Positions 19,644-41,809 of a stretch of 64,000 bases of DNA are shown piece after piece. This DNA is from Pelagibius litoralis (lineage in GTDB: Bacteria > Pseudomonadota > Alphaproteobacteria > Kiloniellales > Kiloniellaceae). The notes under the pieces were generated by a model that saw only the letters and a list, made by a program, of their open reading frames with translations, ran no database searches and was not told the DNA's origin. Location: assembly GCF_011683915.1 (NCBI RefSeq), contig NZ_JAAQPH010000011.1, forward strand, positions 62,001 to 126,000. Reading direction: 5' to 3'. The position numbers and the translations under genes were made by a program. Numbering within the stretch: the stretch's first letter is position 1; every line of letters starts with the position of its first letter.

Positions 19644-19657
19644 TTGATCTACATCAA
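19644..19657. promoter_or_regulatory. FNR-type box, proximal to the regulator gene
   Basis: TTGATCTACATCAA is a perfect 14-nt FNR/FixK-type palindrome. Its centre is 65 nt upstream of the Crp/Fnr start codon and 160 nt upstream of the first peroxidase start. Confidence 0.85.
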
Positions 19658-19720
19658 ATTCCTGTGAATTGGGGGATGGCTGTTGCACGGAGGCCTCATT
19701 TTCGGTTTTTGCGGCGCACA

Positions 19721-19734
19721 TTGATTGCAATCAA
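19721..19734. promoter_or_regulatory. FNR-type box, proximal to the peroxidase/Rieske/Mo operon
   Basis: TTGATTGCAATCAA is a second perfect FNR/FixK-type palindrome, fully self-complementary. Its centre is 83 nt before the ATG at 19810. A class II promoter would start transcription near 19769, although no strong -10 is visible there. Confidence 0.85.
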
Positions 19735-19809
19735 AGGAGAGTCGGAGGGATATCGCCTAGGGTCCCGTCGAAGGCTGCGCGACCGATGCTGCCTGACGGG
19801 AGGACTCCG

Positions 19810-20892
19810 ATGCGATTGCTACTTACCCTTGTTGTCACCGCTTTTGCCGGCCTTGCCGGCGCCGCGGCCCTGGCCCAGGACAAGGGGCCGATCAAGCCGA
19901 TGGACGTGAAACCCGCGCTGGCCGAACTCGGCAAGCGCATGTTCTACGATGCCAGATTATCAGGCGACACGACGCTCGCCTGCGCCTCTTGCCATCAGCC
20001 GGACAAGGCTTTCACCGACGGCGAAGCACTCTCTGCAGCCTATACCGGCGCGGGGCACTTCCGCAATTCGCCAACGCTGGCCAACGTGGGTTACCGGGCC
20101 GCCTGGATGCACGACGGCCGCCTGGGCACGAACCTGAACGACGTCGCGCGGGAGATGATCACCGAGACCTATCTGATGAACATGGACATGCGGATCATGC
20201 AGGAACGCATGAAACAGGACCCGGTCTATGTGGAGATGTTCAAGGCCGCGGGAATGAGCGAACCTTCCAACGGCGGCGCCCGCAACGCGTTGCAGGCCTT
20301 CATGCAGACCATTGTTTCCAGAGGGGCGCCAATCGATAGCGGCGCGTTGTCGCCGGCGGCTGAGCGCGGCCAGGATCTCTTCGAAGGCAAAGCCGGTTGC
20401 GCGGCCTGCCATTCCGGTGAGCGCTTCACAGACGACCTGCCCCATAACACTGCGGTGCCGAACAATCCGGATATCTGGGCAGAGCCGGAGCGGCACTCGG
20501 CCTTTGTCACCTACGCCAAGTTCATGGGCGTCGAAAACTACATGAACCTGCGCGAGGATCTCGGCGCCTACATCCGCACGCGCGACTGGCGGACCAAGCG
20601 CAGCTTCCTCACCCCGACACTGCGGGAGCTCACCTGGACCGCGCCCTACATGCACAACGGCTCCATGGCGACCCTTGCTGAGGTTGTGGATTTCTATAAC
20701 GCCGGCGGTGGAGACGACCCCTTGAAGGACCCGCGGGTCCGTCCTCTGGGTCTGTCGCCGGAAGAGAAGGCCGATCTGGTGGCCTTCCTCGAGGCGCTCA
20801 GCGGCGAGTCTTTCGACACCGACGCCTATGTCTGGCGCGCCGACGACTACGACTACGTTTTGATCGAAAACTGGCGCGAAACGACCAATTGA
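19810..20892 (+). CDS. idrP: Di-heme cytochrome c peroxidase, IdrP-like (first copy)
   Basis: Periplasmic di-heme c-type cytochrome of the MauG/CcpA peroxidase family, 360 residues. A Sec signal peptide (MRLLLTLVVTAFAG to ALAQ) is followed by two heme-binding motifs, CASCH (C58-H62) and CAACH (C197-H201), and the family signatures HFRNSPTLANVGYR and TAPYMHNGSMATL. An in-frame ATG at 19669 is rejected because the 19810 ATG has GGGAGGA upstream and begins the signal peptide. It is first in an operon with a second peroxidase, a Rieske protein and an arsenite-oxidase-like Mo subunit, which is the gene content of iodate reductase. There such peroxidases are proposed to remove peroxide made during iodate reduction. 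Which copy corresponds to IdrP1 or IdrP2 is not decided here. Confidence 0.82.
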   Translation: MRLLLTLVVTAFAGLAGAAALAQDKGPIKPMDVKPALAELGKRMFYDARLSGDTTLACASCHQPDKAFTDGEALSAAYTGAGHFRNSPTLANVGYRAAWMHDGRLGTNLNDVAREMITETYLMNMDMRIMQERMKQDPVYVEMFKAAGMSEPSNGGARNALQAFMQTIVSRGAPIDSGALSPAAERGQDLFEGKAGCAACHSGERFTDDLPHNTAVPNNPDIWAEPERHSAFVTYAKFMGVENYMNLREDLGAYIRTRDWRTKRSFLTPTLRELTWTAPYMHNGSMATLAEVVDFYNAGGGDDPLKDPRVRPLGLSPEEKADLVAFLEALSGESFDTDAYVWRADDYDYVLIENWRETTN

Positions 20893-20903
20893 GGGAGGCG
20901 ACA

Positions 20904-22052
20904 ATGACCGCATACAAATCCATCGGCGCTGTCATGCTCGCCGCCGTTTTGACCGCTCCGGTGATGTCCGGTCCGGCGCTGGCCGACAATCCGCGCCCGG
21001 AGGGCCTGGCCGCGCTGGGTCCGCCGCCGATCCCGGCCGACAATCCGATGACGGAGGCAAAGATCGAACTCGGCAAGATGCTGTTCTTCGATCCACTCAT
21101 TTCCGGCAACAACGCGATGCCTTGTTCGGCCTGCCATCTGCCGGACGCCGGCTGGGCAGTCCAGGACCGGATCAGCTTCGGCTATCCCGGCACGACCCAC
21201 TGGCGCAACAGCCAGACCATCATAAACTCGGCCTATTACTCCAAGCTGTTCTGGGCCGGCTCTTCCAAGTCGCTTGAAGCGCAGGCCCGTTCGGCGGCGC
21301 GCGGCGGCGTCGCCGGCAACGGCGAAGACGACATGATGGAAGCGCGTCTGGCTTTCGTGCCCACCTACCGCGAGCGCTTCGCCGAGGTGTTCGGCGACGA
21401 TTGGCCCAACATCCGCCATGCCTACATGGCAATCGCCGCTTTCCAGCGCACCCTCGTGCAGACCGACACGCCTTTCGACAACTATATGCGCGGCGACGAC
21501 TCGGCACTGAGCGACCAGCAGAAGCGGGGCCTGGATCTCTTTGCCGGCAAAGCCAATTGCATCGCCTGCCACAGCGGACCGCTGTTGAGCGACGAGCAGT
21601 ACTACAACCTGGGTGTGCCGCCCTACGAAGGCTGGGAAGACGACGAGCTGGCGCAGATCACCTTCCGCTTCGAGCTTTACGCCAAGGGCTCGACGGAGGA
21701 GCTCTATCGTCACACGAAAGACGACCCGGGCCTCTACTTCCGCAGCAAGGACAAGCGACATAAGGGCAAGTTCCGCACGCCGAGCCTGCGCTACACGAAG
21801 TACACCTTCCCCTACATGCACAACGGCATGCTGGAGACGCTGCGTGACGTCGTGGTCTTCTACAACGACGGCGGCGGCGAGAACGAGTTCGCCGAAACCA
21901 AGAGCCCGCTCATGCAGCCCCTGGGGCTCAGCGACAGCGAGGTCGACGATCTCGTGGCCTTTCTTGAGAGCCTTTCAGGCGATGAGATTTTGATGGACGA
22001 ACCGGCCCTGCCGGTCATGGAGCCGTTGCCAGCAGCAACGGCCCAGAACTAA
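20904..22052 (+). CDS. idrP: Di-heme cytochrome c peroxidase, IdrP-like (second copy)
   Basis: Second periplasmic di-heme peroxidase, 382 residues, 11 nt after the first. It has a signal peptide (MTAYKSIGAVMLAAV to PALAD) and heme motifs CSACH (C74-H78) and CIACH (C219-H223). It ends with the family block around TFPYMHNGMLETLRDVV and a tail rich in Pro/Ala. It differs clearly from the first copy: where that one has MHDGR after the first heme, this has WAGSSK. The two are therefore divergent paralogues, not a recent duplication, and may do different jobs. GGGAGG precedes the ATG by 5 nt; the upstream in-frame TTG is rejected. Confidence 0.82.
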   Translation: MTAYKSIGAVMLAAVLTAPVMSGPALADNPRPEGLAALGPPPIPADNPMTEAKIELGKMLFFDPLISGNNAMPCSACHLPDAGWAVQDRISFGYPGTTHWRNSQTIINSAYYSKLFWAGSSKSLEAQARSAARGGVAGNGEDDMMEARLAFVPTYRERFAEVFGDDWPNIRHAYMAIAAFQRTLVQTDTPFDNYMRGDDSALSDQQKRGLDLFAGKANCIACHSGPLLSDEQYYNLGVPPYEGWEDDELAQITFRFELYAKGSTEELYRHTKDDPGLYFRSKDKRHKGKFRTPSLRYTKYTFPYMHNGMLETLRDVVVFYNDGGGENEFAETKSPLMQPLGLSDSEVDDLVAFLESLSGDEILMDEPALPVMEPLPAATAQN

Positions 22053-22067
22053 GAGGAGTCGGAGATC

Positions 22068-22652
22068 ATGACTATCGACCCCCGCATCGCCGCCGCCGTG
22101 AACGGCGAGAACGGCGAGGCTGAGAAGGCCGGAACCCGGTCCTGCCTGATGAACCGGCGCTCTTTCCTGCTGACCGGCGGTATCGCGACAACGGTGATGA
22201 TGATCGGCATTCCGGGGCTCGCCGCTGCCCAGACCCCGGCCGTCGTCGCCACCTATCCGCGGAAGTTCATTACCAAGCTTTCCGACCTCAAGGTCGATGA
22301 GCCGTTCGACTTCGAATATCCGGACGAAGGTCAGTATGCGGAATCGATTCTGGTAAAACTGGGCAAGGAAGCAGGTGGCGGCCTCGGTCCCGACAAGGAC
22401 GTTGTCGCCTTCAACTATACCTGTACGCACCAGGGCGGCCCGCTGCAGGGCACCTATCAGGCAGCGGACAAGGCGCTCGGGCCCTGCCCGTTACATCTGA
22501 CGACCTTCGATCTGACGCGCCACGGCATCTTCATATCGGGCCAGGCTTACCAGTCGCTGCCGCAGGTGCTGATGGAGCTGGATGGCGACGACATCTACGC
22601 CGTCGGCATGTTCGGCCTGATCTACGGCCGCTTCGACAATCTTCAGGGCTAA
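22068..22652 (+). CDS. idrB: Rieske [2Fe-2S] small subunit with Tat signal, IdrB/AioB-like
   Basis: 194-residue Rieske protein of the arsenite oxidase small-subunit family. A Tat signal (NRRSFLLTGG) follows a 27-residue N-terminal extension and should export the folded complex. Cluster ligands are C119/H121 (CTHQGG) and C140/H143 (CPLH). The extra cysteines that form the disulfide in bc1-type Rieske proteins are replaced by Gly and Leu. The C-terminal FGLIYGRFDN resembles the AioB ending. It passes electrons between the Mo subunit encoded 12 nt downstream and periplasmic cytochromes. ATG at 22148 is a possible alternative start, but GGAG before 22068 favours the longer form. Assignment to IdrB rather than AioB rests on the two adjacent peroxidases. 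Confidence 0.8.
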   Translation: MTIDPRIAAAVNGENGEAEKAGTRSCLMNRRSFLLTGGIATTVMMIGIPGLAAAQTPAVVATYPRKFITKLSDLKVDEPFDFEYPDEGQYAESILVKLGKEAGGGLGPDKDVVAFNYTCTHQGGPLQGTYQAADKALGPCPLHLTTFDLTRHGIFISGQAYQSLPQVLMELDGDDIYAVGMFGLIYGRFDNLQG

Positions 22653-22664
22653 GGAGAGATAACC

Positions 22665-25340
22665 ATGTCTACCCCGTACTATGTCCCCGAAGAGTCCGTG
22701 CCGCTGCCGCCGCCCGATGCGGATGTTATCCCCACCGCCTGCGACTACTGCATCGTCGCCTGCGGCTACAAGGTCTATCGCTGGCCGGTGCGCGGCGGAA
22801 AAGTCGGCGGCCCGGCAGCCGATCAGAATGCTTTCGGCGAGGATTTTCCGGTCAGCCCGCTGGGTGCCTGGATCGCGCCGAACCAGCACAACATCGTGCT
22901 GCACAACGGCGAACCGCACCACGTCGTCATCATTCCGGACAAGGACACGGAATACGTCAATCCGAACGGCAATTCGTCGATCCGCGGCGGTGCTATCGCG
23001 CAGAAGGTCTATAATCCGCAGAGCCCGACGCGCGATCGTCTGAAGTCGCCGATGGTGCGCATGTTCGGCGTTCTGATGCCGGTGACCTGGGACTTCGCCC
23101 TCGACATCGCGGCAGAGGTCGGCCGTCATGTTCTCGACAAGCACGGCACCAATGCCTACGGCGTGAAGACCTTCTCCTACGGCTACATGGAGAACACCTA
23201 CGCGATCACGAAGTACGCCCTGGGCAATGTCCGGACCGCGAACTTCACCTTCCACGATACGCCCTCGGACGTGACCTCGACGCCCGGTTTCCGGGACGCC
23301 GGCTTCGACAACTTCGGGCCGAGCTACGAGGACTGGCGCGACGCCGAAACTCTGCTGATCTGCGGCACGGACCCCTACGAGACCAAGACGATCCTTTTCA
23401 CCGACTGGATCATGCCGGCCATCCAGAACGGCCAGAAGGCGATCTTCATGGTTCCGCGCCGCACCGGCGGCGTTGCCTATGCCGAGAAGAACGGCGGCAT
23501 GCTGCTCGACATTCAGCCGGGCACCGACCTGCCGGTGGTGCTCGCCATCGCCCGGGTGATCGTGGAGAACGGCTGGGAGGACAAGGAGTGGATCCAGAAC
23601 TGGGTCAACTCCAAGTGGGAAAGCTCTTCGGGCTTCGGCCAGGGCACCCGCAACACGCCCTGGCAGTGGCGCACGACCTGGGGCAAGTTCCAGACCGACG
23701 GTTTCGAAGACTGGAAGAAGTGGCTGACGGCGCAGGACTACGCGGTGCCTGAGAAAGCCGCCGAAATCGCCCAGATCGACGTGAAGAAGATCTATACCGC
23801 GGCCGAGTGGATGGCCAAGCCCAGGGATGACGGGTCACGCCCCAAAACCTCGATCATGATCGAGAAGGGCTTCTACTGGTCCAACAACACCGGCAATACC
23901 AATGCGATCTCCTCGCTGGGTATCATCGCCGGCTGTGGCGGCCGTCCGGGGCAGGTGATCGCGCGTGCCGGCGGGCACCAGCGCGGCGGGCTGCGCGGCG
24001 GCTCCTACCCGCGCAACAAGAGCCCGGAAAAGCTGCCGGGGCGCCGTCGCCGGGCGATGGATACCGACCGCTATCTGATGTCGGGCCATACCCGGCTGGC
24101 CCATGTCATCGGCACCACCTGGGTTCAGGCGATGTGCGGCACCCAGTCGCTGCAGGCCAAGTTCGACGAGCTGACCACCCGCAATCCGCATCAGGTGCAG
24201 TCCTTCGACAAGGCCGAGATTATCGAGACGCTGAAGAAGCGGGCGGATTCCGGCGGCATGGTGGTGTGGGACCAGGACATCTACCTGGTCGACCCCATCG
24301 GTGCGCGCTATGCCGACATCGTTTTCCCCGCCGCCGGTTGGGGGGAGGACGACTTCACCCGCGCCAACGGCGAGCGGCGTATCCGGCTGTATCCGAAGTT
24401 CTACGATGCGCCGGGCGAAGCCAAGCCGGACTGGTGGATCGTCGCCCAGCTCTCCAAGAAGATGGGTTTCGAGGGCTTCGACTGGAAGAACTCCAACGAG
24501 GTTCTGGAGGAGGGCTCGCGCTTCTCCCGCGGTTCGCGCAAGGACTTCCACATGGTGAAGGTCGCGGCCCATCGCGAGGGCAAGACGCTGCATCAAAAGC
24601 TCGGCGAATTCGGCACCAACGGTATTCAGGGCCCGGTCCTGATGCTGGCCGACGGCAGTCTGGAGGAAACCAAACGGTTGCACGACGTGAACCGGGTTTT
24701 GCCCGAGAACGGGCCGGCCGGCGGCACCGTGTTCAACAAGAAGCTCACCCACTTCAACACCCAGACCGGAAAGTGCAACCTGCAGAAAGCGCCCTGGGAC
24801 CTGTTCTCCAGTTACTGGGAGTGGCTGAAGCCGCGCGAGGGTGAGATCTGGATGACCTCGGGGCGCATCAACGAGCGCTGGCAGTCCGGCTACGACGACC
24901 GCCGCCGCCCCTATATCGTCCAGCGCTGGCCGGAGAACTGGATCGAGCTGCATCCGGATGATGCGGCCGCCTATGGCGTGGAGTCGGGCGACTATGTGAT
25001 GGTCTTTTCTGATCGCATACCGGTGCAGAAAGACACCATCGTCGGCGTGGAGGGCGATGACTTCGACTTTGCCTCGTTGCTGAAGAACGGGCACATCGAG
25101 TTGACCAAAGCCTCGATCACCGCCGTGGCGATCGTGACGCCGGCGGTGAAGAAGGGTGTCGGTTACATGGATTTCCTCCATACCAGCCAGCCGGCCAACG
25201 CGCTTTCCGGCCGGGTCGTCGACTGGATCAGCGGCAACTACAACTACAAGATGGGTGTCGGCCAGGTGCAGCGTCTGGGTGAGAGCCCGTACAAGCACCA
25301 GTACCGTTCGATGTCCTTCGCGCGTCGCGACATCGCCTGA
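22665..25340 (+). CDS. idrA: Molybdopterin oxidoreductase of the arsenite oxidase clade, candidate iodate reductase catalytic subunit
   Basis: 891-residue DMSO-reductase-superfamily catalytic subunit. The N-terminal C26-x2-C29-x3-C33 with Ser near 105 (NSSIRGG) is the AioA-type [3Fe-4S] pattern. AioA-like blocks include CGYKVYRW, NGERRIRLYPKF and GFEGFDWK. The R434/H438 pair in RAGGH matches the active-site Arg/His pair of arsenite oxidase, but the upstream segment that carries the other As-site His and Glu has neither here (residues 198-220). There is no signal peptide, so export on the Tat signal of the Rieske partner is expected. Together with IdrB- and IdrP-like neighbours, iodate reduction is the best call; arsenite oxidase or an undescribed sister enzyme remain possible. 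AAGGAGA precedes the ATG. Confidence 0.75.
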   Translation: MSTPYYVPEESVPLPPPDADVIPTACDYCIVACGYKVYRWPVRGGKVGGPAADQNAFGEDFPVSPLGAWIAPNQHNIVLHNGEPHHVVIIPDKDTEYVNPNGNSSIRGGAIAQKVYNPQSPTRDRLKSPMVRMFGVLMPVTWDFALDIAAEVGRHVLDKHGTNAYGVKTFSYGYMENTYAITKYALGNVRTANFTFHDTPSDVTSTPGFRDAGFDNFGPSYEDWRDAETLLICGTDPYETKTILFTDWIMPAIQNGQKAIFMVPRRTGGVAYAEKNGGMLLDIQPGTDLPVVLAIARVIVENGWEDKEWIQNWVNSKWESSSGFGQGTRNTPWQWRTTWGKFQTDGFEDWKKWLTAQDYAVPEKAAEIAQIDVKKIYTAAEWMAKPRDDGSRPKTSIMIEKGFYWSNNTGNTNAISSLGIIAGCGGRPGQVIARAGGHQRGGLRGGSYPRNKSPEKLPGRRRRAMDTDRYLMSGHTRLAHVIGTTWVQAMCGTQSLQAKFDELTTRNPHQVQSFDKAEIIETLKKRADSGGMVVWDQDIYLVDPIGARYADIVFPAAGWGEDDFTRANGERRIRLYPKFYDAPGEAKPDWWIVAQLSKKMGFEGFDWKNSNEVLEEGSRFSRGSRKDFHMVKVAAHREGKTLHQKLGEFGTNGIQGPVLMLADGSLEETKRLHDVNRVLPENGPAGGTVFNKKLTHFNTQTGKCNLQKAPWDLFSSYWEWLKPREGEIWMTSGRINERWQSGYDDRRRPYIVQRWPENWIELHPDDAAAYGVESGDYVMVFSDRIPVQKDTIVGVEGDDFDFASLLKNGHIELTKASITAVAIVTPAVKKGVGYMDFLHTSQPANALSGRVVDWISGNYNYKMGVGQVQRLGESPYKHQYRSMSFARRDIA

Positions 25341-25398
25341 TTCGCCAGGGTCGGCGCGGCTGGCGCTGCGCCGACTGTCTTTCCGGGAGAAGATCGCC

Positions 25399-27609
25399 AT
25401 GATGAGTGCAGTGAGCCTCCCGCCGACAGGGCCTCTCGACCCCGTCGGCGTTGTCTTGCGACATCTGCGCGAGGGCGAGGATGTGGTTCGCTGTGCGGCG
25501 GCCCGCGCCCTCGCTGCCCTGGGGGACAGCAAGGCGGCGCCGGCGCTCGTCGAAGCCTTGCTTGACGAGGATCCGGACGTGCGGATCGATGTCATGGCGG
25601 CCCTCGTGCAGTGTGCGCGGGCCGAAGATGCCGACGCGATCCGCCGCTCCCTGATGGGTGATCCGGTCAAGGAAGTGAAAGTCTTTGCGATCGAAGCCCT
25701 GGGCCGTTTGGCGGACGGGGCATCGGTGCCGTTGCTCTGTGCCCTGGCGAAGGATCGTTGCGGTCATGACGTCGCCTGGGAAGACGATACCGGCATGTGG
25801 GATGAGTGGCTGGATGTGCAGGTTGCGGCGATAGCGGCCTTGGGCGCGATGGGCGCCGGTGATGCGATCGAGACTCTTCTCGAAGCCCGCTCCGACGAGC
25901 TGGGGCAGGAACTCGATGCCGCGGTTTTCAACGCGCTGGCGGAGATTTCCGAGGGCGGCGTTGCCGTTCTGGCCGGCCTGCTGCGCGATAGAAGTGCAGC
26001 GGTGCGGGCCGGGGCTTTTCGGGCGCTGTCGAAAGCCCGTAAAGACGTTCTGATGCCGCTAAGCGGGCTCTTTGCAAAGGATGCGAATGCCGAGATCCGG
26101 CAGCTTGCGATCGGTTGCCTCGATGCGGGGGATCCGCTGGCATCGCGTCTCGCCCTTGCCGATCCGGATGCCGCTGTTCGCCGTGCCGGCGTCGCGGCCT
26201 TTGCTGCGTCGCGTCCGGAAATCGCACAGGCCGCGCTTGGCGACCCCGACGAAGAAGTGAAGGCTATTGCGCTGGAAGCTCTGGTGTCGGGCCCGGAACC
26301 GCTCATCACCGACGACCTGGCCGCCAACACCACGGCCTGGATGGCAAGCGGCGGTCTTCGCCTGGCGACGGCCTGCGCGACGCTGCTGCCGGCGATTGCC
26401 GGGCTTGAGGCCGAGGGTCCGCTTTGCGAAGTCGCTGTCGACGTTCAGCGGCCCCAGGAACTGCGTATCGCCGCCTTGCGTTCGCTTGGCGGCTTTGCCT
26501 CCGACACCACTGTCGAGGTTTTGCGCCGCGCGGCCACGGACCCCGTCAGGCAGGTGCGGGCAGTGGCGCTTGCGTCCCTGGCGGTGCTGTCGAAGGCACC
26601 TGAAAACCCGATGCGCCCGGCAGCGGCAGATCTGCTGATCGCGGCCATAGACGGGCGTCTTTCAGAGCCTGACCCTGAGGCCCGGGGTGCGGACCCGGAG
26701 CAACAGGGCGTGCTGGGCGCGCTGGGCGCTTCGAAGATTGAAGAGGGCGGGGCCGGGCGCATCGTCATATCGCGGGACGGCGAAATTCTTCCGGCAGATG
26801 GGCCGTCAGGTGGCGGGCAGGAAGATGCGCCGGAGAGCAACGTCGTCGAAGGCCGTTTCCCGCGGTCGACATTGGACGCCATTCAAGGCCCTGAGCCCGT
26901 TTCTTCCGAAGCTGAGGGTGAAGCGGCGCCGGATGATGCCGAGGATCTCGCCGCCGGCTACACCAAAAGCCGCCGCCGGCGGGTGGCCGTCGACGGTCCG
27001 GACGACATCGGCGACGATCTTCGTCTGATCGCTTTGGGTGTTGCAGCCGATTGTCCCGGAGAAGGGATCGAGGGGGCTCTGGTGGAGTCGCTCGGATCGG
27101 GCGATTCGGTCCTGCGCATCGCCGCCTTCAAGGCCCTGGCACAGCGCGGTGAGAGCCTGCCGCTGTCGCCGGCGACGGAAGCTGCTCTGGTGACAGCCCT
27201 CGGCGATGTCGAACCGGTGGTCAGGGGCTATGCGGCGCAGGCCGTTGCCGGTTGTTCTGCCGATGCAGCCGACAAACTGCTGGCTTTTCTTGACGATCCC
27301 GATGCGATTGTCCGCGCTGTCGCTTTGCGGCATGCCGCCGCGACGGCGCCTGAGCGGGCTTTTGACGGTCTGCGCGATGACTCGCTCCTCGTCAGGCGCG
27401 CGGCTTTGGAGAGCGTGATTGCGTCCGGTCGTGCCGCCGATCTGGAAAAGGCCATGACGATCTGTCTGGAGGAAGGGCGGGCCGATAGCCTGACCGAGGC
27501 CTGCCGGCAGAGCGTTGCAGCCCATGGCATTCTGCTGTCCATCCTGAATGCCGAGCAGACCGCGCGGCGGCGAACCCAGGCCGCGCTGGAGGCTATTGCC
27601 TCGGCCTGA
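25399..27609 (+). CDS. HEAT-repeat protein, last gene of the iodate-reductase-like operon
   Basis: 736-residue cytoplasmic protein without signal peptide or membrane segment. Residues 20-430 and 530-720 are made of helical HEAT/PBS-lyase-type repeats (such as VRCAAARALAALGD and VRAVALASLAVLS). An acidic, low-complexity linker (about 430-530) separates the two solenoids. GGGAGAAG precedes the ATG at 25399; the longer in-frame ORF starting inside the Mo subunit gene is rejected. The gene follows the Mo subunit by 58 nt with no terminator, so it is probably co-transcribed. It is not one of the four known iodate reductase genes. A scaffold or maturation role for the Mo or Rieske subunit is a guess based only on position and fold. 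Confidence 0.75.
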   Translation: MMSAVSLPPTGPLDPVGVVLRHLREGEDVVRCAAARALAALGDSKAAPALVEALLDEDPDVRIDVMAALVQCARAEDADAIRRSLMGDPVKEVKVFAIEALGRLADGASVPLLCALAKDRCGHDVAWEDDTGMWDEWLDVQVAAIAALGAMGAGDAIETLLEARSDELGQELDAAVFNALAEISEGGVAVLAGLLRDRSAAVRAGAFRALSKARKDVLMPLSGLFAKDANAEIRQLAIGCLDAGDPLASRLALADPDAAVRRAGVAAFAASRPEIAQAALGDPDEEVKAIALEALVSGPEPLITDDLAANTTAWMASGGLRLATACATLLPAIAGLEAEGPLCEVAVDVQRPQELRIAALRSLGGFASDTTVEVLRRAATDPVRQVRAVALASLAVLSKAPENPMRPAAADLLIAAIDGRLSEPDPEARGADPEQQGVLGALGASKIEEGGAGRIVISRDGEILPADGPSGGGQEDAPESNVVEGRFPRSTLDAIQGPEPVSSEAEGEAAPDDAEDLAAGYTKSRRRRVAVDGPDDIGDDLRLIALGVAADCPGEGIEGALVESLGSGDSVLRIAAFKALAQRGESLPLSPATEAALVTALGDVEPVVRGYAAQAVAGCSADAADKLLAFLDDPDAIVRAVALRHAAATAPERAFDGLRDDSLLVRRAALESVIASGRAADLEKAMTICLEEGRADSLTEACRQSVAAHGILLSILNAEQTARRRTQAALEAIASA

Positions 27610-27788: not shown

Positions 27789-28703
27789 ATGGGCGACAGC
27801 AGCCTCAAGACGGGGGAAAAAACCGACGGCGATGCCGGCCGGCGTTACAGCCGCCTCGACCCCGAGGCCCGGGTCCCGCTTTACCACCAGATTTTCATCA
27901 TCCTGAGAAACCGCATTTATGGCGGTGAGATAACGCCGGGCGATCTGGTTCCGGGCGAGCAGGAACTCTGCCATGAGTTCGGTGTGTCGCGGATCACCGC
28001 GAAACGGGCCCTCAATGAACTGGCGGACGCCGGTTTGGTGGTGCGCGAAAGGGGCCGTGGAACGCGGGTGATCAAGCGCCCGCCGGCACCGGCCGTGACC
28101 GCCTCCATCGAAGGCTGGCTTGAGAATATTTCGCTGATGGGGCTTGCGACCGAGGCCCGGGTTTTGGACTTCGGCTATGTTCCGGCGAACGAGGATATTG
28201 CCACTGCGCTGGGGGTTGAGCAGGGCGCGCAGGTTCAGCGGGCGGTGCGGGTGCGCATCCTTGATGATGAGCCGATGTCGTTTCTGGTCACCTACGTGCC
28301 TGCCGATATCGGGCGCCACTATGATCGCGACGACCTCAACACCACGCCGCTGCTGCATCTGTTGGAGCGGGCGGGCGTCGACGTGGCCTCGGCGCGCCAG
28401 ACGATTTCCGCCACCATTGCCGATGGGGAGGTTGCCGCTGCGCTTTCCGTCCATGCCGGCGCACCGCTGATCGAGGTTCGCCGGGTGGTGCGCGACGGCG
28501 CCGAGCGCCCGGTGGAGTACATCAGGGTGCTCTATCGTCCGGACCTCTATCGTTTCGAGATGTCCATGCGCCGGGTGCAGGAAGAAGAGGGCATGCGCTG
28601 GACAACGCAGGGCGCTGCGCCCTCTGCGGCGGGCGGTCGGTCCAGGAAAGCGCAGGACGATAGCGATCTTCAGCCGCTGGCGGGTGGTGGGCTACATGAC
28701 TGA
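27789..28703 (+). CDS. GntR/HutC-family regulator with UTRA ligand-binding domain
   Basis: 304 residues: an N-terminal winged helix (about 30-94; PLYHQIFIILRNRI, then FGVSRITAKRALNELADAG) and a C-terminal UTRA domain (about 105-250) of the type that binds small metabolites. It starts the catabolic island, overlaps the next gene by 8 nt and has a palindromic candidate operator over its own promoter, so it is the likely local repressor responding to the imported substrate or an intermediate. The last 45 residues are a low-complexity tail (AAPSAAGGRSRKAQDD) beyond the usual HutC length. Confidence 0.88.
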   Translation: MGDSSLKTGEKTDGDAGRRYSRLDPEARVPLYHQIFIILRNRIYGGEITPGDLVPGEQELCHEFGVSRITAKRALNELADAGLVVRERGRGTRVIKRPPAPAVTASIEGWLENISLMGLATEARVLDFGYVPANEDIATALGVEQGAQVQRAVRVRILDDEPMSFLVTYVPADIGRHYDRDDLNTTPLLHLLERAGVDVASARQTISATIADGEVAAALSVHAGAPLIEVRRVVRDGAERPVEYIRVLYRPDLYRFEMSMRRVQEEEGMRWTTQGAAPSAAGGRSRKAQDDSDLQPLAGGGLHD

Positions 28704-30096
28704 GCGGGCGACAGCGGCTGTGCAGGCCGCAGGCAGAGGTTACCTCGACGTCCTGGCCGGGTTTCTTGCAGACCTGCGCTTCGACGACCTGCCGCCTGAA
28801 GTGGTTGAGCGTGCAAGCTGGGTCTATGCCGACTGTCTCGGTGCGATTGCCGCAGGCGCGCAGGAAGAGGAAATGCGCAGCCTGACCCGCAGGCTGGTGA
28901 AAGAAAGCGGTTCCGGCCCGGCCGGCGTCCTGGGCAGCGGCATGACGGCGCCGGCGATGACGGCAGCCTTCCTGAATGGAACGGCCGGTACATTCCTGGA
29001 ACTCGACGAGGGCAATCAGTTCGCCAGGGGGCATCCGGGCATGCATGTCGTGCCCGCACTGGCCGCGTTGTCCCAGCAGGTTGATGTATCGGGGCGTGAC
29101 TTGGTGACGGCCCTGGTTGCCGGTTATGAGGTGGGGTCGCGCATCGGCATTGCATCCAAACTGCGTATGACCATGCATCCCCATGGCACCTGGGGTACGG
29201 TCGGCGCGGCGGTCGCGGTGGGCAAGCTCATGGGCTACGACGCGGCCCGGCTGCGGGAGATCATTTCTCTCTCGACCAGCCTCGGCCTCACCACCAGCCG
29301 CAAGACGATGCTGGAGGGCGGCACGGTCCGCAACACCTTCACGGGTTTTTCCAATCACATCGGCATTCTGGCGCATCACTTGATCCAGGCGGGCTTCAGC
29401 GGCGAAGCGGACGGCCTTGCGACGGTTTACGGCACGGTGATCGCCGAAGACTACCGGCCCGAAGAAATGGTGGCGGACCTCGGCCGGCGTTATGAAATCG
29501 CCCGCAACTATTTCAAGCGCCACGCCTGCTGCCGCTACACCCATGGCACCCTGGATGCGCTGGAGCAGATCGTCCGGCAGCGCGGCGGCCGTCTGCGGCC
29601 TGATGAGATCGAGCGGATCGAGGTTCGAACCTACTCGCTTGCGGCCCAATTGGAGGACCGCGATCCGCGCAACACGCTGGCCGGTAAGTTCTCGGTCCCC
29701 TTTGCCGTGGCGACCACGATCATCAACGGGTCCTCCGGCGTCGACAGTTTCCGCATGGCCAAGATCGGCGATGAAGAGATTCGCAGTCTGGCGCAGCGGG
29801 TCACCCTCAGCGAGGACGCGGCCCTGACTGCGATGATGCCCGAATTTCGGCCCGCCCGCGTCAAGGTCTACCTCCGCGACGGCGCCCTGCTTGAGGGCGC
29901 GACCGATATCAATCGCGGCGACACCGAAGATCCCTACGGTCCCGCAGACCTGACCGACAAGTTCCGCGAAATGGTCGCGCCGCTTCTGGGGGCGGGGCCG
30001 AGCGATGCAGTTCTGCAAAGCTGCCTGCGCTTGGCGGAAGCGGAAAATGCGGGAGACCTGTTGGGGCCTTTTAAAGCCGTTGTGCCGATAGACTGA
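28696..30096 (+). CDS. MmgE/PrpD-family protein (dehydratase/isomerase fold)
   Basis: 466-residue member of the MmgE/PrpD family, which includes 2-methylcitrate dehydratase, cis-aconitate decarboxylase and iminodisuccinate epimerase. Family landmarks include an all-helical N-terminal domain (LPPEVVERASWVYADCLG), the GHPGMHVVPALAAL segment and a C-terminal KVYLRDG strand. The ATG at 28696 overlaps the end of the GntR gene; a GTG at 28684 is an alternative. With an aconitase-like hydratase and a PrpB-like lyase in the same operon, dehydration of an alkylcitrate-like or malate-like acid is a reasonable inference, but the substrate is unknown. Confidence 0.82.
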   Translation: MTERATAAVQAAGRGYLDVLAGFLADLRFDDLPPEVVERASWVYADCLGAIAAGAQEEEMRSLTRRLVKESGSGPAGVLGSGMTAPAMTAAFLNGTAGTFLELDEGNQFARGHPGMHVVPALAALSQQVDVSGRDLVTALVAGYEVGSRIGIASKLRMTMHPHGTWGTVGAAVAVGKLMGYDAARLREIISLSTSLGLTTSRKTMLEGGTVRNTFTGFSNHIGILAHHLIQAGFSGEADGLATVYGTVIAEDYRPEEMVADLGRRYEIARNYFKRHACCRYTHGTLDALEQIVRQRGGRLRPDEIERIEVRTYSLAAQLEDRDPRNTLAGKFSVPFAVATTIINGSSGVDSFRMAKIGDEEIRSLAQRVTLSEDAALTAMMPEFRPARVKVYLRDGALLEGATDINRGDTEDPYGPADLTDKFREMVAPLLGAGPSDAVLQSCLRLAEAENAGDLLGPFKAVVPID

Positions 30097-30135
30097 GCAA
30101 ACAAATCAAAACCTGAAGAACAGGGGGAATAGAAA

Positions 30136-31386
30136 ATGACTAAGGCAAAGCACCCGCTAGGGCGGGGCGTATCGCGTCGCAGGATCATCAAAGGTACGGC
30201 CTCCGTTGCCGCTCTGACCGCCCTTGGCGGATTTCCCAACGTCTTGCGGGCCCAGGGCGCGACGGTCAAGGTCGGCGTCCTTCATCCGGTAACCGGCGCC
30301 ATCGCTTTTGCCGGAACCCAGGCGCGCATCGGTGCGGAGATGGCGATTGAGGAGATCAACAAGGCCGGCGGCATCAAGTCGCTGGGCGGCGCGAAGCTGG
30401 AGCCGGTATTCGGCGACACCCAGGGCAAGCCCGAAGTCGCCGCCACGGAAGTGGACCGCATGGCGCGCGAGGAGATCGTCGCGCTGATCGGCTCTTTTGC
30501 CAGTTCCAATACTTTGGCGACCACCCAGGCCGCCGCGAAACACGGTATCCCCTGCATCGTCGACGTGGCGGTTTCCGACAAGATCGTCGGTCGCGGATTG
30601 GATAATGTCTTTCGCTTCAGCCCGGGCTTCGGCAAGTGTTCCGAGGATGCGCTGAACAACCTCGTCAACATCAACGCCTCAGCCGGCAACTTGGCGAAGA
30701 CGGTCACCATCATCCACGAGGACTCGCTCTTCGGTTCGGGCTTGGCGGGGCTTTTGAACAAGCGCCTGCCGGACTTCGGTTTCGAAGTCATCGAGACCAT
30801 TGCCCATGCAACGCCGACGCGCGACTTCAGCAATGTGGTGACCAAACTCAGGTCGACAAAACCCGATCTCATCGTTCCGGCCAACTACTACAACGAATAT
30901 GTGCTGCTGGCGCGCACCATGCTGCAGCAGAGGATTCAGCCCAAGGCGATTTACTCCGTCCTCGGCGGCGCGGCGTCGAACTACCGCTTCGTCAAAGAAC
31001 ATCCCAAGGCGGCGCAGTACATCATGGATTGCAACCACTGGCCCGACCCGCGCAAGGACGGTACCCAGGCGCTGCGTCAGAAGGTTGAGGCCACCGGCAA
31101 GTTCTTTACCTACGAAGTGCCGATGAACTACGACTGCGTGCGTCTTTTTGCGGACGCTCTGGAACGCGCCGCCTCGGCCGAACGCGGCGCAGTGAAAGCG
31201 GCGCTGTCGTCGGCCAACTGGAAGGGCATGATCATGCCCTATGCGGCTGTCGAGTTCGACGAAAAGGGCCAGAACAAGCACGCGCGGCCGGTCAACACCC
31301 AGATCATTGGCGACGATATCGAGATCATCTTCCCCGATGAGCTGGCCTCGGCCAAGGTTGTCTATCCCATGCCGTCGCGCGGCTGA
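30136..31386 (+). CDS. ABC transporter substrate-binding protein, branched-chain amino acid/amide type
   Basis: 416-residue periplasmic binding protein of the LivJ/AmiC type. The N-terminus has a Tat-like signal (SRRRIIKGTA) followed by a hydrophobic stretch ending at LRAQG. The mature part begins TVKVGVLHPVTGAIAFAGTQ, typical of this family, and shows the two-lobed pattern with FGDTQGKPEVA and IIHEDSLFGSG. A strong CAGGGGGAA precedes the ATG. It feeds the permease and ATPase genes that follow. This family takes amino acids, urea, amides and aromatic or dicarboxylic acids, so the true ligand is best predicted from the catabolic genes downstream. Confidence 0.88.
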   Translation: MTKAKHPLGRGVSRRRIIKGTASVAALTALGGFPNVLRAQGATVKVGVLHPVTGAIAFAGTQARIGAEMAIEEINKAGGIKSLGGAKLEPVFGDTQGKPEVAATEVDRMAREEIVALIGSFASSNTLATTQAAAKHGIPCIVDVAVSDKIVGRGLDNVFRFSPGFGKCSEDALNNLVNINASAGNLAKTVTIIHEDSLFGSGLAGLLNKRLPDFGFEVIETIAHATPTRDFSNVVTKLRSTKPDLIVPANYYNEYVLLARTMLQQRIQPKAIYSVLGGAASNYRFVKEHPKAAQYIMDCNHWPDPRKDGTQALRQKVEATGKFFTYEVPMNYDCVRLFADALERAASAERGAVKAALSSANWKGMIMPYAAVEFDEKGQNKHARPVNTQIIGDDIEIIFPDELASAKVVYPMPSRG

Positions 31387-31451
31387 CGGATGGAAAAGCC
31401 GGACCGGCTGCCGTTGCGGGGCGCCGGTCCGGCTGCTGTGGGAAAAACAAC

Positions 31452-32324
31452 GTGCTAGACCCCATTCTGCTCTGGTCGGGCCTCGTCAACGGGCTGCTGC
31501 AAGGGGCGATCTACGCCCTTGTCGCCCTGGGGCTGACGTTGATCTATGGCGTGCTGCACATCATAAACTTTGCCCACGGCAGCCTGCTGATGCTGGCGAT
31601 GTACGGGGTATTCCTGCTGTTCTCGCAGTTCGGTATCGATCCCTATGCCGCCTTGCCGATCATGGTGGTCGGCATGTTCGTGCTGGGCTATGGCCTGCAG
31701 CGCGGCCTGATCAGCCGGGCCAGTCACGGAAGGGACGAGAACATTCTTCTGGTCACCCTCGGTATCTCCATCGTGATCGAAAATCTCGCCCTCTTCTTCT
31801 TCCAGGGCGACACCCGGACGATCGATGTGCCTTACGCCTTCGACTCGCTTGAGGTCTTCGGGGTCTTTATCGCCATTCCCCGTTTGATTGCTTTTGCTGC
31901 GGCCCTGCTCATTGCCGGGCTGCTGTGGCTGATGATCCAGCGCAGCGACGTCGGCCGGGCGATCCGCGCCGTGGCAAAGGAAAAGCAGGGTGCGCGGCTT
32001 GTCGGCATCAACGTGGAACACATCTACGCCGTCAGCTATGGGGTCGGTATCGCCTGCCTGGGGGCCGCGGCCTGCCTGCTGATGCCGACCTATCTGGTCT
32101 ACCCGACGGTCGGCCATGCCTTCGTTCTGATCGCTTTCACGGTTGTGGTGCTCGGCGGCATGGGCAGCTTCCCCGGGGCCTTGCTGGGCGGCTTGCTGAT
32201 CGGCCTCTGTGAAAGTTTCGGCGGCCTGTTTCTGGGCGAGAGCTTCGGGCAGATCGGCATCTTTCTGGTCTTTATCGTCGTTCTGCTGTTCCGGCCCAGC
32301 GGCCTGTTGGGGAGCAGGGTCTAG
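31452..32324 (+). CDS. Branched-chain-type ABC transporter permease, LivH-like
   Basis: 290-residue inner-membrane permease with about eight hydrophobic segments. The N-terminal GLVNGLLQGAIYALVALGLTLIYG-type start (GLTLIYGVLHIINFAHG) and the GGMGSFPGALLGGLLIG block are hallmarks of LivH. The GTG start has only a weak ribosome site. Its stop codon overlaps the GTG of the next permease by one base, consistent with coupled translation. Confidence 0.9.
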   Translation: MLDPILLWSGLVNGLLQGAIYALVALGLTLIYGVLHIINFAHGSLLMLAMYGVFLLFSQFGIDPYAALPIMVVGMFVLGYGLQRGLISRASHGRDENILLVTLGISIVIENLALFFFQGDTRTIDVPYAFDSLEVFGVFIAIPRLIAFAAALLIAGLLWLMIQRSDVGRAIRAVAKEKQGARLVGINVEHIYAVSYGVGIACLGAAACLLMPTYLVYPTVGHAFVLIAFTVVVLGGMGSFPGALLGGLLIGLCESFGGLFLGESFGQIGIFLVFIVVLLFRPSGLLGSRV

Positions 32325-33286
32325 TGCGCACCCTCGCGGCGATAGCAGTTTTCGGTTTCGCGATGGCGGTGCTGCCGGCCTTCGGGCCCACCGATTTCAT
32401 GTTGTCGTTTCTGACGCTGATGCTGCTCTTCGCCTATCTCGGCCAGGGTTGGAACATCCTCGGCGGCTATGGCGGCCAGTTCTCCTTCGGCAACACCGTG
32501 TTCTTCGGCGCCGGGCTTTATGTGACGGTGATTACCCAGGTGCAGTTCGGGCTCGGGCCCTGGGCGGGCTTGGCCGCGGCCTTGCTGGCCGGGGCTGCCG
32601 TCGCCTTTGCCATCGGCTGGCTCAGTTTCCGCTACGGTCTGCGGGGGTCCTACTTCGCCCTGATCACCCTGGCCTTCGCCGAGGTCTTCCGCATCGTCGC
32701 TAACTCCATTGCCATCACCGGGGCCGGGGCGGGCCTGCAGGTGCCGCTCGATCCTTCTCCCGCGAACCTGCAGTTCGTCGGGCGCGAGGGATTCTACTGG
32801 ATCATTCTGGCGCTGACCGTCGGCTCGCTGCTGCTCGCCTGGCAGCTGGAGCGCTCGCGCTTCGGGGTCTATCTCATCGCCATCCGCGACGACGAAGACG
32901 CCGCCCGCGCCCTTGGCGTCGATATCTTTCGGACGAAGCTTCGGGCGATTGTTCTGGTCGGGGCCATGACCGCGCTTGGCGGGGCTTTCTACGGCCAGAT
33001 GTTCCTCTACGTCGACCCGCATATCGCCTTCGGGGTCTCGGTCTCGGTCGAGGTGTTGCTGGTCTCCATCGTCGGGGGTATGGGGACCGTGTTCGGCCCC
33101 TTGCTGGGGGCCGCCGCCCTTCATACCCTCAGTGAAGTGGCGCGTGAGACCATGGGTGATACGCCGGGCCTCAACCTGGCCCTCTACGGGGCCTTGCTGG
33201 TGGTAATGGTGATGTTCCTGCCCAAGGGCCTTTTCGGCCTTGCCAGCTTTTCGGCCCGGCGCCTGCTCAAGGGGTGGCGTTCGTGA
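32324..33286 (+). CDS. Branched-chain-type ABC transporter permease, LivM-like
   Basis: 320-residue second permease subunit. It carries LivM landmarks (GQGWNILGGYGGQFSFGN, ALITLAFAEVFRIVANS, SIVGGMGTVFGPLLGA). The GTG start shares a base with the preceding stop, and the end overlaps the ATPase gene. It pairs with the LivH-like subunit to form the membrane channel. Confidence 0.9.
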   Translation: MRTLAAIAVFGFAMAVLPAFGPTDFMLSFLTLMLLFAYLGQGWNILGGYGGQFSFGNTVFFGAGLYVTVITQVQFGLGPWAGLAAALLAGAAVAFAIGWLSFRYGLRGSYFALITLAFAEVFRIVANSIAITGAGAGLQVPLDPSPANLQFVGREGFYWIILALTVGSLLLAWQLERSRFGVYLIAIRDDEDAARALGVDIFRTKLRAIVLVGAMTALGGAFYGQMFLYVDPHIAFGVSVSVEVLLVSIVGGMGTVFGPLLGAAALHTLSEVARETMGDTPGLNLALYGALLVVMVMFLPKGLFGLASFSARRLLKGWRS

Positions 33287-34032
33287 TGCTCGAACTAAGA
33301 TCCCTGTCCAAGAGTTTCGGAGGGCTGCTGGCGACCGCGGATGTCAGTCTCGCCGTGCCGGAAGGGCGTATCGTTTCGCTGATCGGCCCGAATGGCGCGG
33401 GAAAGACGACGCTCTTTGCCATAGCCTCCGGCTTTCTGACGCCGGATTCCGGCTCCATCCACTTCCTGGGGCAGGACGTCACCGGCCTGCCGCCCCATGA
33501 AATATGCCGTCTGGGCCTCGTGCGGACCTTTCAGGTGGTGAAGCCCTTTGCCGAGCAGAGCGTGCGCGAAAACATACTGGTCGGCGCTCATCTGCGCCGG
33601 GCTGGGCACCGCGATGCGGCCGAGAAGGCCGATGAGGTGGCGGAACTGGTCGGGATGACCGGGCGGATGGACGATCTTGCGGGCAGCCTGACGATTGCCG
33701 GGCGTAAACGCCTTGAGTTGGCCAAGGCGCTGGCCACCGAACCCAAACTGTTGTTGCTGGATGAAGTTATGGCAGGGCTCAATCCCACTGAGATCGAGGA
33801 GATCATCCCCGTCATCCATCGGCTGCGCGACAGCGGCCTGACCATCATGCTGATCGAACATGTGATGCAGGCGGTCATGAAGCTGTCGGAATACACCTGG
33901 GTGCTCAATCAGGGGCGTCTCATCGCTGAAGGATCCCCACAACAGATCGCCCGCGATCCGGCGGTGATCGAAGCCTATCTCGGCCACGGCCTGGCGGCGC
34001 GCATTGAGGCGGAGAATCGTGCAAATGCTTGA
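33286..34032 (+). CDS. Branched-chain-type ABC transporter ATPase, LivG-like
   Basis: 248-residue nucleotide-binding subunit. Walker A is GPNGAGKTT and Walker B is LLLLDEVMAGLNP. The ABC signature is unusual: the segment reads LTIAGRKRLELAKAL where LivG proteins more often have LSYG or LSGG, a variant seen in part of the family. ATG at 33286, overlapping the LivM stop as TGATG, is chosen over GTGs at 33274 and 33283. Confidence 0.88.
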   Translation: MLELRSLSKSFGGLLATADVSLAVPEGRIVSLIGPNGAGKTTLFAIASGFLTPDSGSIHFLGQDVTGLPPHEICRLGLVRTFQVVKPFAEQSVRENILVGAHLRRAGHRDAAEKADEVAELVGMTGRMDDLAGSLTIAGRKRLELAKALATEPKLLLLDEVMAGLNPTEIEEIIPVIHRLRDSGLTIMLIEHVMQAVMKLSEYTWVLNQGRLIAEGSPQQIARDPAVIEAYLGHGLAARIEAENRANA

Positions 34033-34729
34033 GATATCGTCGCTAAGAGCCGGCTACGGTGCCCTGGAGGTGCTGCGGGGTATCGACCTCAGCATCTCGG
34101 CCGGAGAGATCGTTGCCGTTCTGGGTTCGAACGGTGCCGGCAAGACCACGCTGAATGCGAACATCAGCGGACTCTACCGGCTGTTCGGCGGGTCAATCCG
34201 TTTCGAGGGTGAAGAGATCTCCAAACACACGCCCGAGCGGATCGTCGCTGCCGGCGTCATCCATGTGCCTGAGGGCCGGCGGGTCTTTCCCAACCTGACG
34301 GTGCGCGAAAACCTGGAGCTTGGCGCCTATCGCCGCGCGCGGGCGAGGCGCAGCGCGAACCTGGACCGGGTCGTGGCGACTTTCCCCCGTCTCTCGGAAC
34401 GTTTCGACCAGAAAGCCGGCACCCTGTCGGGCGGCGAGCAGCAGATGCTCGCCATCGGCCGCGGGCTGATGGCGGAGCCGCGCCTGCTCATTCTCGATGA
34501 GCCGTCGCTCGGCCTGTCGCCGCTGTTGGTGGAGGAAATGTTCGAACTGATCCGCCGGCTGAACGATGACGGACTGTCCGTCCTTCTGGTCGAGCAGAAC
34601 GTGGTGCAATCGCTGGAGATCGCCGACCGCGCTTATGTACTTGAAAACGGAGCGATTGCCATGCAGGGCGCCGCAGAAGCATTGATCGAAGATGAAGGGC
34701 TCCGGCGTTCTTACCTGGGGTTGGCATGA
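34025..34729 (+). CDS. Branched-chain-type ABC transporter ATPase, LivF-like
   Basis: 234-residue second ATPase. It shows Walker A (GSNGAGKTT), a canonical signature (LSGGEQQMLAIGRGL), Walker B (LLILDEPSLGLSP) and the LivF landmark VPEGRRVFPNLTVRENLELG. It overlaps LivG by 8 nt, and its stop overlaps the next ATG. With this gene the importer is complete: one binding protein, two permeases, two ATPases. Confidence 0.9.
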   Translation: MLEISSLRAGYGALEVLRGIDLSISAGEIVAVLGSNGAGKTTLNANISGLYRLFGGSIRFEGEEISKHTPERIVAAGVIHVPEGRRVFPNLTVRENLELGAYRRARARRSANLDRVVATFPRLSERFDQKAGTLSGGEQQMLAIGRGLMAEPRLLILDEPSLGLSPLLVEEMFELIRRLNDDGLSVLLVEQNVVQSLEIADRAYVLENGAIAMQGAAEALIEDEGLRRSYLGLA

Positions 34730-36033: not shown

Positions 36034-36536
36034 GCGGGCGCGTTTTTCTCTTCGGCGATGATGTCGACACCGACCAACTGGCGCCCGGCGCTTTCATGAG
36101 CGGCGGGATCGCCAGCCTGGCAGCGCACTGCCTGGAAGATCTGCGGCCGGACTTCGCAAGTACCGTCAAGGCCGGCGACCTTGTCGTCGCGGGCAAAAAC
36201 TTCGGGATAGGGTCTTCGCGCGAACAGGCGGCCGAGGCGCTCAGGCATCTCGGCGTTGCCGGTGTCGTTGCGCGATCTTTTGCGGGCATCTTTTATCGCA
36301 ACGCCATCAACCTCGGGCTCCCGGTCATGGTCGCCGAGGACCTGGGTGACCTTGCCGATGGTGACGCGGCAGAGCTTGACATGGAAGCGGCCGTACTTCG
36401 GTTGACCGGAAAGGAAACGGTGGTGCGCCTTGAGCCTTTGCCGGAGAACCTGAAGCGGCTGCTGGCCGATGGCGGGCTGGTGGCGCACCTGAAGGAACGC
36501 TTTGCCGAGAAACGCCTGGAGGAATCCGGTCCATGA
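36030..36536 (+). CDS. Aconitase/isopropylmalate dehydratase-family small subunit
   Basis: 168-residue swivelling-domain subunit (LeuD-like) that completes the active site of the large subunit. Landmarks: DDVDTDQLAPG at the N-terminus and NFGIGSSREQA followed by VARSFAGIFYRNAINLG. It overlaps both neighbours by 4 nt, so the two subunits are probably made in equal amounts. Confidence 0.85.
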   Translation: MSGRVFLFGDDVDTDQLAPGAFMSGGIASLAAHCLEDLRPDFASTVKAGDLVVAGKNFGIGSSREQAAEALRHLGVAGVVARSFAGIFYRNAINLGLPVMVAEDLGDLADGDAAELDMEAAVLRLTGKETVVRLEPLPENLKRLLADGGLVAHLKERFAEKRLEESGP

Positions 36537-41189: not shown

Positions 41190-41191
41190 TC

Positions 41192-41806: not shown

Positions 41807-41809
41807 AGC

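Follow-up and report, generated by a model that had tools for sequence, protein, structure and literature searches.

A probable Idr-type iodate reductase operon with a linked HEAT-repeat gene in an alphaproteobacterium

The locus described here is best explained, with a probability of about 0.8, as an Idr-type iodate reductase operon, in which two peroxidase genes precede those of the Rieske and molybdopterin subunits (order P-P-B-A), carried by an alphaproteobacterium near Denitrobaculum and Pelagibius, placed under oxygen control and provided with a probable lineage-specific assembly factor. The operon was found in a window of 64,000 nucleotides, the term being used for the whole stretch of DNA analysed, and its parts are listed in Table 1. 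The four idr genes belong to a set already known, and the fifth gene, which codes for a HEAT-repeat protein, is the new part of the system.

Layout of the operon and gene order

The five genes are co-oriented from 19810 to 27609, with gaps of 11, 15, 12 and 58 nt, and the ATG at 19810 is the most likely start of the first one. Both peroxidases, named P1 and P2 by their position here (the upstream one may be P2 in the published numbering), show two CxxCH motifs, at residues 58 and 197 in P1 and at residues 74 and 219 in P2, and a Sec-type signal recognised by eye. IdrB contains the motif NRRSFLL at residue 29 and the Rieske signature CxH...CxxH at residue 119, while in IdrA no signal peptide was seen by eye and the cysteine motif is C26-X2-C29-X3-C33 (CX2CX3C). 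The locus therefore combines, on motif evidence and inspection, a Tat signal on IdrB and none on IdrA, the CX2CX3C motif, and two di-heme peroxidases directly 5' of idrB-idrA, as an Idr operon does. The initial annotation had described the two di-heme peroxidases, the Tat-type Rieske protein, the arsenite-oxidase-like Mo subunit and the first three gaps, all of which were borne out by the open reading frames, the Pfam matches and the motifs. Its span of 19644 to 27609 held in part: the left edge is where an FNR/FixK box begins and not a gene start, and the right edge is the stop of the HEAT gene, which lies inside these limits and had been left out of the description.

Table 1. Features of the operon and its upstream region (window coordinates)
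Feature	Coordinates	Strand	Remarks
Divergent Crp/Fnr-family regulator, 240 aa	18863..19585	-	Pfam HTH_Crp_2; NCBIfam FixK model below cut-off
FNR/FixK box TTGATCTACATCAA	19644..19657	+	166 nt 5' of the P1 ATG
FNR/FixK box TTGATTGCAATCAA, full palindrome	19721..19734	+	89 nt 5' of the P1 ATG
idrP, upstream ("P1"), di-heme cytochrome c peroxidase, 360 aa	19810..20892	+	Pfam CCP_MauG
idrP, second ("P2"), di-heme cytochrome c peroxidase, 382 aa	20904..22052	+	Pfam CCP_MauG
idrB, Rieske [2Fe-2S] subunit, 194 aa, twin-arginine motif	22068..22652	+	Pfam Rieske
idrA, molybdopterin catalytic subunit, 891 aa	22665..25340	+	Pfam Rieske_3, Molybdopterin and Molydop_binding
HEAT-repeat protein (fifth gene), 736 aa	25399..27609	+	Pfam HEAT models

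The P-P-B-A order was recognised by eye in 73 of the 80 loci that make up the best 80 of 291 relatives, the other seven being on contigs that begin too late to show it. It had at first been regarded as a departure from a published A-B-P-P arrangement, which is wrong, and gene order was rejected as a novelty. In fact, peroxidases-first is the published order: the available sections of PMC10989891 give idrP2, P1, B, A for Ca. M. iodofontis and the same for Pseudomonas sp. SCT and Denitromonas sp. IR-12, and those of PMC8801600 state that idrAB is "always preceded" by two peroxidases. The peroxidases also precede idrB-idrA in the annotated Azonexus locus, so that idrABP1P2 is a name and not a gene map. 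Compared with the idrABP1P2 clusters or iodate reduction islands of SCT, IR-12, Azoarcus DN11 and Aromatoleum TC-10, the window has the same four genes, the Tat motif on IdrB with none seen on IdrA, the CX2CX3C motif and the di-heme peroxidases; it differs in that no cytochrome c, moaA or AtoSC-type pair is directly adjacent and in the addition of the HEAT gene and the FNR-family regulator. Its IdrA is about 50% identical to those of Azonexus and Thiothrix; the accessory genes of these two are similar to the ones reported for SCT and TC-10. The operon is of the same class as the idr genes of Roseovarius azorensis, Notoacmeibacter marinus and Aliiroseovarius sediminilitoris, as these are presented in the available part of PMC11445184.

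Other neighbourhoods were inspected as well. In the window, a 3006-aa frame with calcium-binding (RTX-like) GGxGxD-type repeats occupies 15-9035, and 27789-43222 holds a likely catabolic group with a GntR regulator, MmgE/PrpD-like, aconitase-like (a pair), isocitrate-lyase-like, hydantoinase A/B-like and isochorismatase-like genes and a branched-chain-type ABC transporter, all assigned by eye. Genes for cytochrome c and cytochrome-bd-I-like domains lie beside idr in two other genomes, G653 (L136, 3333-15651) and G506 (L137, 3385-5994), the former with ethylbenzene-dehydrogenase-like domains too, and a dedicated electron supply is a possible role for these cytochromes.

The catalytic subunit and arsenite oxidase

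In a scan of named GTDB genomes, the best 80 of 291 relatives shared 76-95% identity with IdrA, against about 27-31% over long stretches for AioA-like proteins. This argues against the reading of the locus as an arsenite oxidase (Aio), or some other oxidase of the Aio-like kind in an unusual gene neighbourhood, which we consider very improbable even though the NCBIfam models TIGR02693 and TIGR02694, both arsenite-oxidase models, score above cut-off for the Mo and Rieske subunits, and AioA provides the closest solved structures to the Mo subunit. These two models cannot tell Idr from Aio, and their family names are not diagnostic. By their titles, the best 80 of 291 relatives are all alphaproteobacterial except L013, labelled Proteobacteria only, and L070, a metagenome-assembled genome (MAG) labelled Anaerolineae; the latter has an IdrA of the alphaproteobacterial type (77%) and neighbours like those of L062, and is perhaps a mis-binned contig. 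Thalassovita taeanensis is among the same 80, and Litorimicrobium taeanense, which resolves to that name, is listed among organisms with iodate-reduction genes in the accessible text of PMC8692401. On plasmids, IdrA matches were obtained in 19 records: Vibrio sp. THAF190c (65%), Azonexus (50%), Thiothrix (49%) and 16 others at 27-30%, NT-26 and pSinA being among these 16.

A phylogeny of the idrA product had been put forward in the initial annotation as a check on its assignment. In a quick tree of 62 rows, 42 Idr-type rows including the window (labelled so by an identity of at least 49%) fell on one branch with a support of 96, apart from 18 AioA-like rows on another with a support of 100, although the tree tool warned of long branches meeting, those of L102_aio with the window and 43 more. 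Among the 80 loci, 49 have no row in the tree; also omitted are other close copies, the idrA of G569, which is split into two pieces, the incomplete L128 and AioA hits from plasmids. The IdrA of the window belongs to a supported set of five, together with a Pelagibius MAG, a Kiloniellaceae bacterium, Denitrobaculum and Sulfitobacter algicola, and those of Azonexus, Thiothrix, G022 and G235 group on a single branch.

The fixed residues separate the two groups as well. In all 42 Idr-type rows the D169-H170 of AioA is replaced by S171-Y172 and N200 by D; E453 is R in 41 of 42; and E207 is never E, being S in 37 of 42. The window protein thus lies outside the AioA clade and is devoid of the AioA-fixed D169, H170, N200, E207 and E453 (NT-26 count), and arsenite oxidase identity was rejected on the tree and these residues. 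The arsenite site of AioA is presumably formed by H199, E207, R447 and H451, an assignment that comes from the Alcaligenes structure and was transferred by residue spacing; H199, R447 and H451 (NT-26 count) are kept in the Idr rows, so that three of these four residues (H197, R434 and H438) speak for an arsenite oxidase, and the missing Glu, in 42 of 42 rows, speaks against it.

The surroundings agree with this assignment. By eye, no aioX, aioS, aioR or ars genes were seen among the larger flanking frames, and the source genome has no second Mo-subunit match above 34 bits. No P1 or P2 match was found at AioA-like loci, many of which reach only about 1.5 kb to each side, in line with the earlier claim that arsenite oxidase loci have no paired peroxidases; the same contrast between idr and arsenite oxidase loci is drawn in the portion of PMC8692401 available. 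The AioAB enzymes of NT-26 and Sinorhizobium M14, which we take to be active arsenite oxidases, share with the window the enzyme family, the Rieske small subunit and the three site residues, but are about 27% identical, differ at the five fixed positions, and show no P1, P2 or HEAT match in the surrounding DNA examined. Idr-type and AioA-like enzymes occur together in two genomes, G528 (L134 and L118) and G653 (L135 and L121). The gene set was first proposed to be that of IdrP1, IdrP2, IdrB and IdrA, and the identities to the best 80 of 291, the split from AioA in the tree and the fixed-site differences all support this. The link to the IdrA of the proven iodate reducers SCT, IR-12 and R. azorensis is made through published descriptions and synteny.

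Regulation and physiology

The pattern TTGAT-N4-ATCAA has two perfect matches in the 64 kb of the window, both 5' of P1, against a mean of 0.02 in shuffled sequences, which never gave two. The adjacent, divergent FNR-family gene codes for a recognition helix of the ExxSR form (ETVSR) and for no cysteine in the first 45 residues, which is FixK-like. To judge from the boxes 5' of the first gene and this neighbour, an FNR/FixK-family regulator probably activates the operon at low oxygen through the two candidate boxes. A cysteine-bearing N-terminus is a trait of oxygen-sensing FNR, and the divergent regulator of four Stappiaceae loci (L051, L049, L038 and L040) has one, such as CGF..ECIC, absent from the copy in the window.

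In the 71 loci with enough upstream DNA, a perfect box was present in 13 and a box with at most one mismatch in 30, the background being 0.0026 and 0.015 per 340 nt, respectively. The cluster of the window's regulator comprises 21 loci, the window counted as one, and boxes were found in 18 of these Crp/Fnr-type loci (three of 21 being without) versus 12 of the 50 others, relatedness being ignored; in many of the Crp/Fnr-type loci the boxes lie about 88 to 121 nt 5' of P1, whose starts were estimated. Two-component-type loci, with a response regulator and a sensor kinase, had a perfect box in none of 31 cases and one with at most one mismatch in six of 31. Such a pair is mostly what stands upstream in the Rhodobacterales relatives examined, whereas the window has a Crp/Fnr gene. 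Sulfitobacter algicola (L011), of the Roseobacteraceae, is unlike most of the Rhodobacterales examined: its IdrA belongs to the window's set, and its locus also has a Crp/Fnr gene and two perfect boxes. A likely explanation is transfer of the entire idr cassette between families. In the available portions of the literature searched, FNR appeared alongside idrA and iodate only in a mention about nitrate reductase. Low-oxygen control, expected for the window operon, was measured in R. azorensis (PMC11445184, in part), and the boxes offer a direct way to test the oxygen response observed in cultured strains.

By homology with the published model, electrons would pass from periplasmic cytochrome c to the Rieske centre of IdrB and on to IdrA, whose Mo centre would reduce iodate to hypoiodous acid, which disproportionates, while the two peroxidases would remove oxidants made along the pathway; the FNR/FixK-family regulator, bound to its two boxes, would induce the operon at low oxygen. 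Periplasmic iodate reduction by IdrAB, oxidant removal by the peroxidases and low-oxygen induction are what we infer for this organism. The available text of PMC8692401 reports idrA deletion evidence in Denitromonas together with the disproportionation model for HIO. The label "dissimilatory", meaning growth-supporting, is unproven for the window operon, because three aerobic marine alphaproteobacteria that carry idr reduced iodate in static or low-oxygen culture but, in the sections of PMC11445184 available, did not grow anaerobically on it; iodate induced the idr genes in one of the three (same source). Those strains, and the FNR-type boxes, which are consistent with low-oxygen induction, favour the possibility that the operon serves as a low-oxygen electron sink or in detoxification rather than in growth-supporting respiration, while the Denitromonas-type Idr, which supports growth (PMC8692401, in part), speaks against it, and we give this possibility an even chance.

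A HEAT-repeat gene linked to idr in one lineage

The HEAT gene is linked to idr in one lineage of the operon. Among the best 80 of 291 relatives, a HEAT frame lies 3' of idrA in all 78 loci whose DNA continues for at least 300 nt beyond it, two other loci ending too early. The spacing over the 78 loci is -3 to 304 nt, with a median of 84 (start codons estimated), and 69 frames are complete (480-827 aa, median 735) and nine run off the contig. The window HEAT protein matches 77 of the 78 loci by tblastn, and L083 aligns with the HEAT family. In 385 alphaproteobacterial genomes, HEAT was present in 11 of the 12 with an IdrA of at least 57% identity and in none of the 373 others, absences which are not exhaustive, as mostly the two best candidates were scored per genome; the Fisher p for co-occurrence is 2e-20 with kinship ignored, and the IdrA and HEAT scans apparently covered the same draw, since the handles agree. 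Seven of the 373 carry only AioA-like hits. The sole exception among the 12 is G449, in which a contig end truncates idrA and the rest of the genome gave no HEAT match. In G653 the HEAT gene is separated from idrA by 13.5 kb that include cytochrome genes. In G506 and G569, the remote HEAT proteins have STL-type linkers and, by eye, do not have the strict W loop.

Outside this lineage, no HEAT match was found in the whole genomes of G235, an alphaproteobacterium (IdrA 52%), and G022 (IdrA 51%), nor in the locus DNA examined of the Azonexus and Thiothrix plasmid idr loci, and a plasmid search for a HEAT homologue gave no match at E 1e-5. The gene is therefore a feature of one Idr type and is not needed for Idr chemistry generally. 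G014 (IdrA 67%) gave one weak HEAT hit of 24 bits, in a longer frame away from idrA. In Vibrio sp. THAF190c a divergent 677-aa HEAT-like frame (L095:4028-6061, minus strand) lies just upstream of the idr genes and carries NPTSTLAAL, a W-rich loop and a basic stretch that recall the alphaproteobacterial protein; with Pfam HEAT_2 below cut-off, an hhalign probability of 5% and a best hmmsearch domain of 11.8 bits, its kinship to the family is suggestive only.

The protein shows by eye no signal peptide, and has an STLDAI linker motif and a WEDDTGMWDEWLDVQ loop. An alignment of 37 sequences has 14 invariant columns besides the start Met, including W127, W134, W137, Q141 and Q170, and of the 69 complete proteins all have the W..W..W motif and 65 an STLxxI-like linker. 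The fold model (pLDDT 86.8, the linker mostly <50) shows a simple solenoid in two parts and a linker that is disordered, and a fold search with it returned generic HEAT solenoids only and no functional lead. The gene is single copy in the source genome, where all 27 candidates were scored. It is likely, from the arrangement of the sequence, to be co-transcribed with idrA across a weak terminator-like match of 5 pairs at 25361-25373, the region having 10 such matches versus 5.9 in shuffles. The texts searched contain no mention of a HEAT gene with idrA or iodate, although figures and supplements may show it, and nothing linking HEAT repeat, molybdoenzyme and chaperone.

NarJ/TorD-type chaperones are dedicated cytoplasmic helpers of Tat-exported molybdoenzymes. 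The HEAT protein may do the same job, as a cytoplasmic factor dedicated to the assembly or export of IdrA-IdrB, and would keep hold of the complex, once cofactor is loaded, until its export through Tat by way of IdrB, a role which we hold tentatively, at somewhat short of even odds. It differs from those chaperones in being a long solenoid outside their sequence family, matched by Pfam HEAT models only and by no NCBIfam model above cut-off. More doubtful is the wider proposal that it is the first of a new class of molybdoenzyme maturation or export factors, binding IdrA-IdrB through the W..W..W..Q loop and the STLxAI linker, and marking a second iodate reductase type, alphaproteobacterial and perhaps also of Vibrio, distinct from that of SCT and Denitromonas.

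Its fast evolution (mean distance 0.70 versus 0.17 for IdrA), the idr loci that have no such gene and the terminator-like match before it would suit a mere neighbour, kept by descent or shared transfer and without a role in iodate reduction. Nevertheless, the gene is constant in the 78 loci, across several orders, while the genes beyond it and the upstream regulators vary; the 373 genomes without such an IdrA do not match it; and G653 retains it at a distance from idrA, so that we regard a mere neighbour as quite unlikely. Distances between HEAT proteins follow those between IdrAs with r 0.81 over 37 representatives, none of 1000 permutations being as high, the corresponding values being 0.44 for P1, 0.90 for P2 and 0.92 for IdrB. 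A part as regulator or sensor adaptor of the operon, instead of assembly factor, also seems unlikely: HEAT solenoids are general protein-binding scaffolds, as the generic fold hits recall, and the STLxAI linker resembles a docking peptide, but the gene is present with either a Crp/Fnr regulator or a two-component pair.

Should the HEAT protein be required, the four-gene description in the literature leaves out a component in many alphaproteobacteria, and idrABP1P2 from such hosts could fail when expressed elsewhere without it. Moreover, the presence or absence of the gene may split Idr systems into two types and give a handle on why some carriers respire iodate while others only reduce it at low oxygen. 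Bacterial iodate reduction is a source of iodide in sea water and, through it, bears on ozone chemistry.
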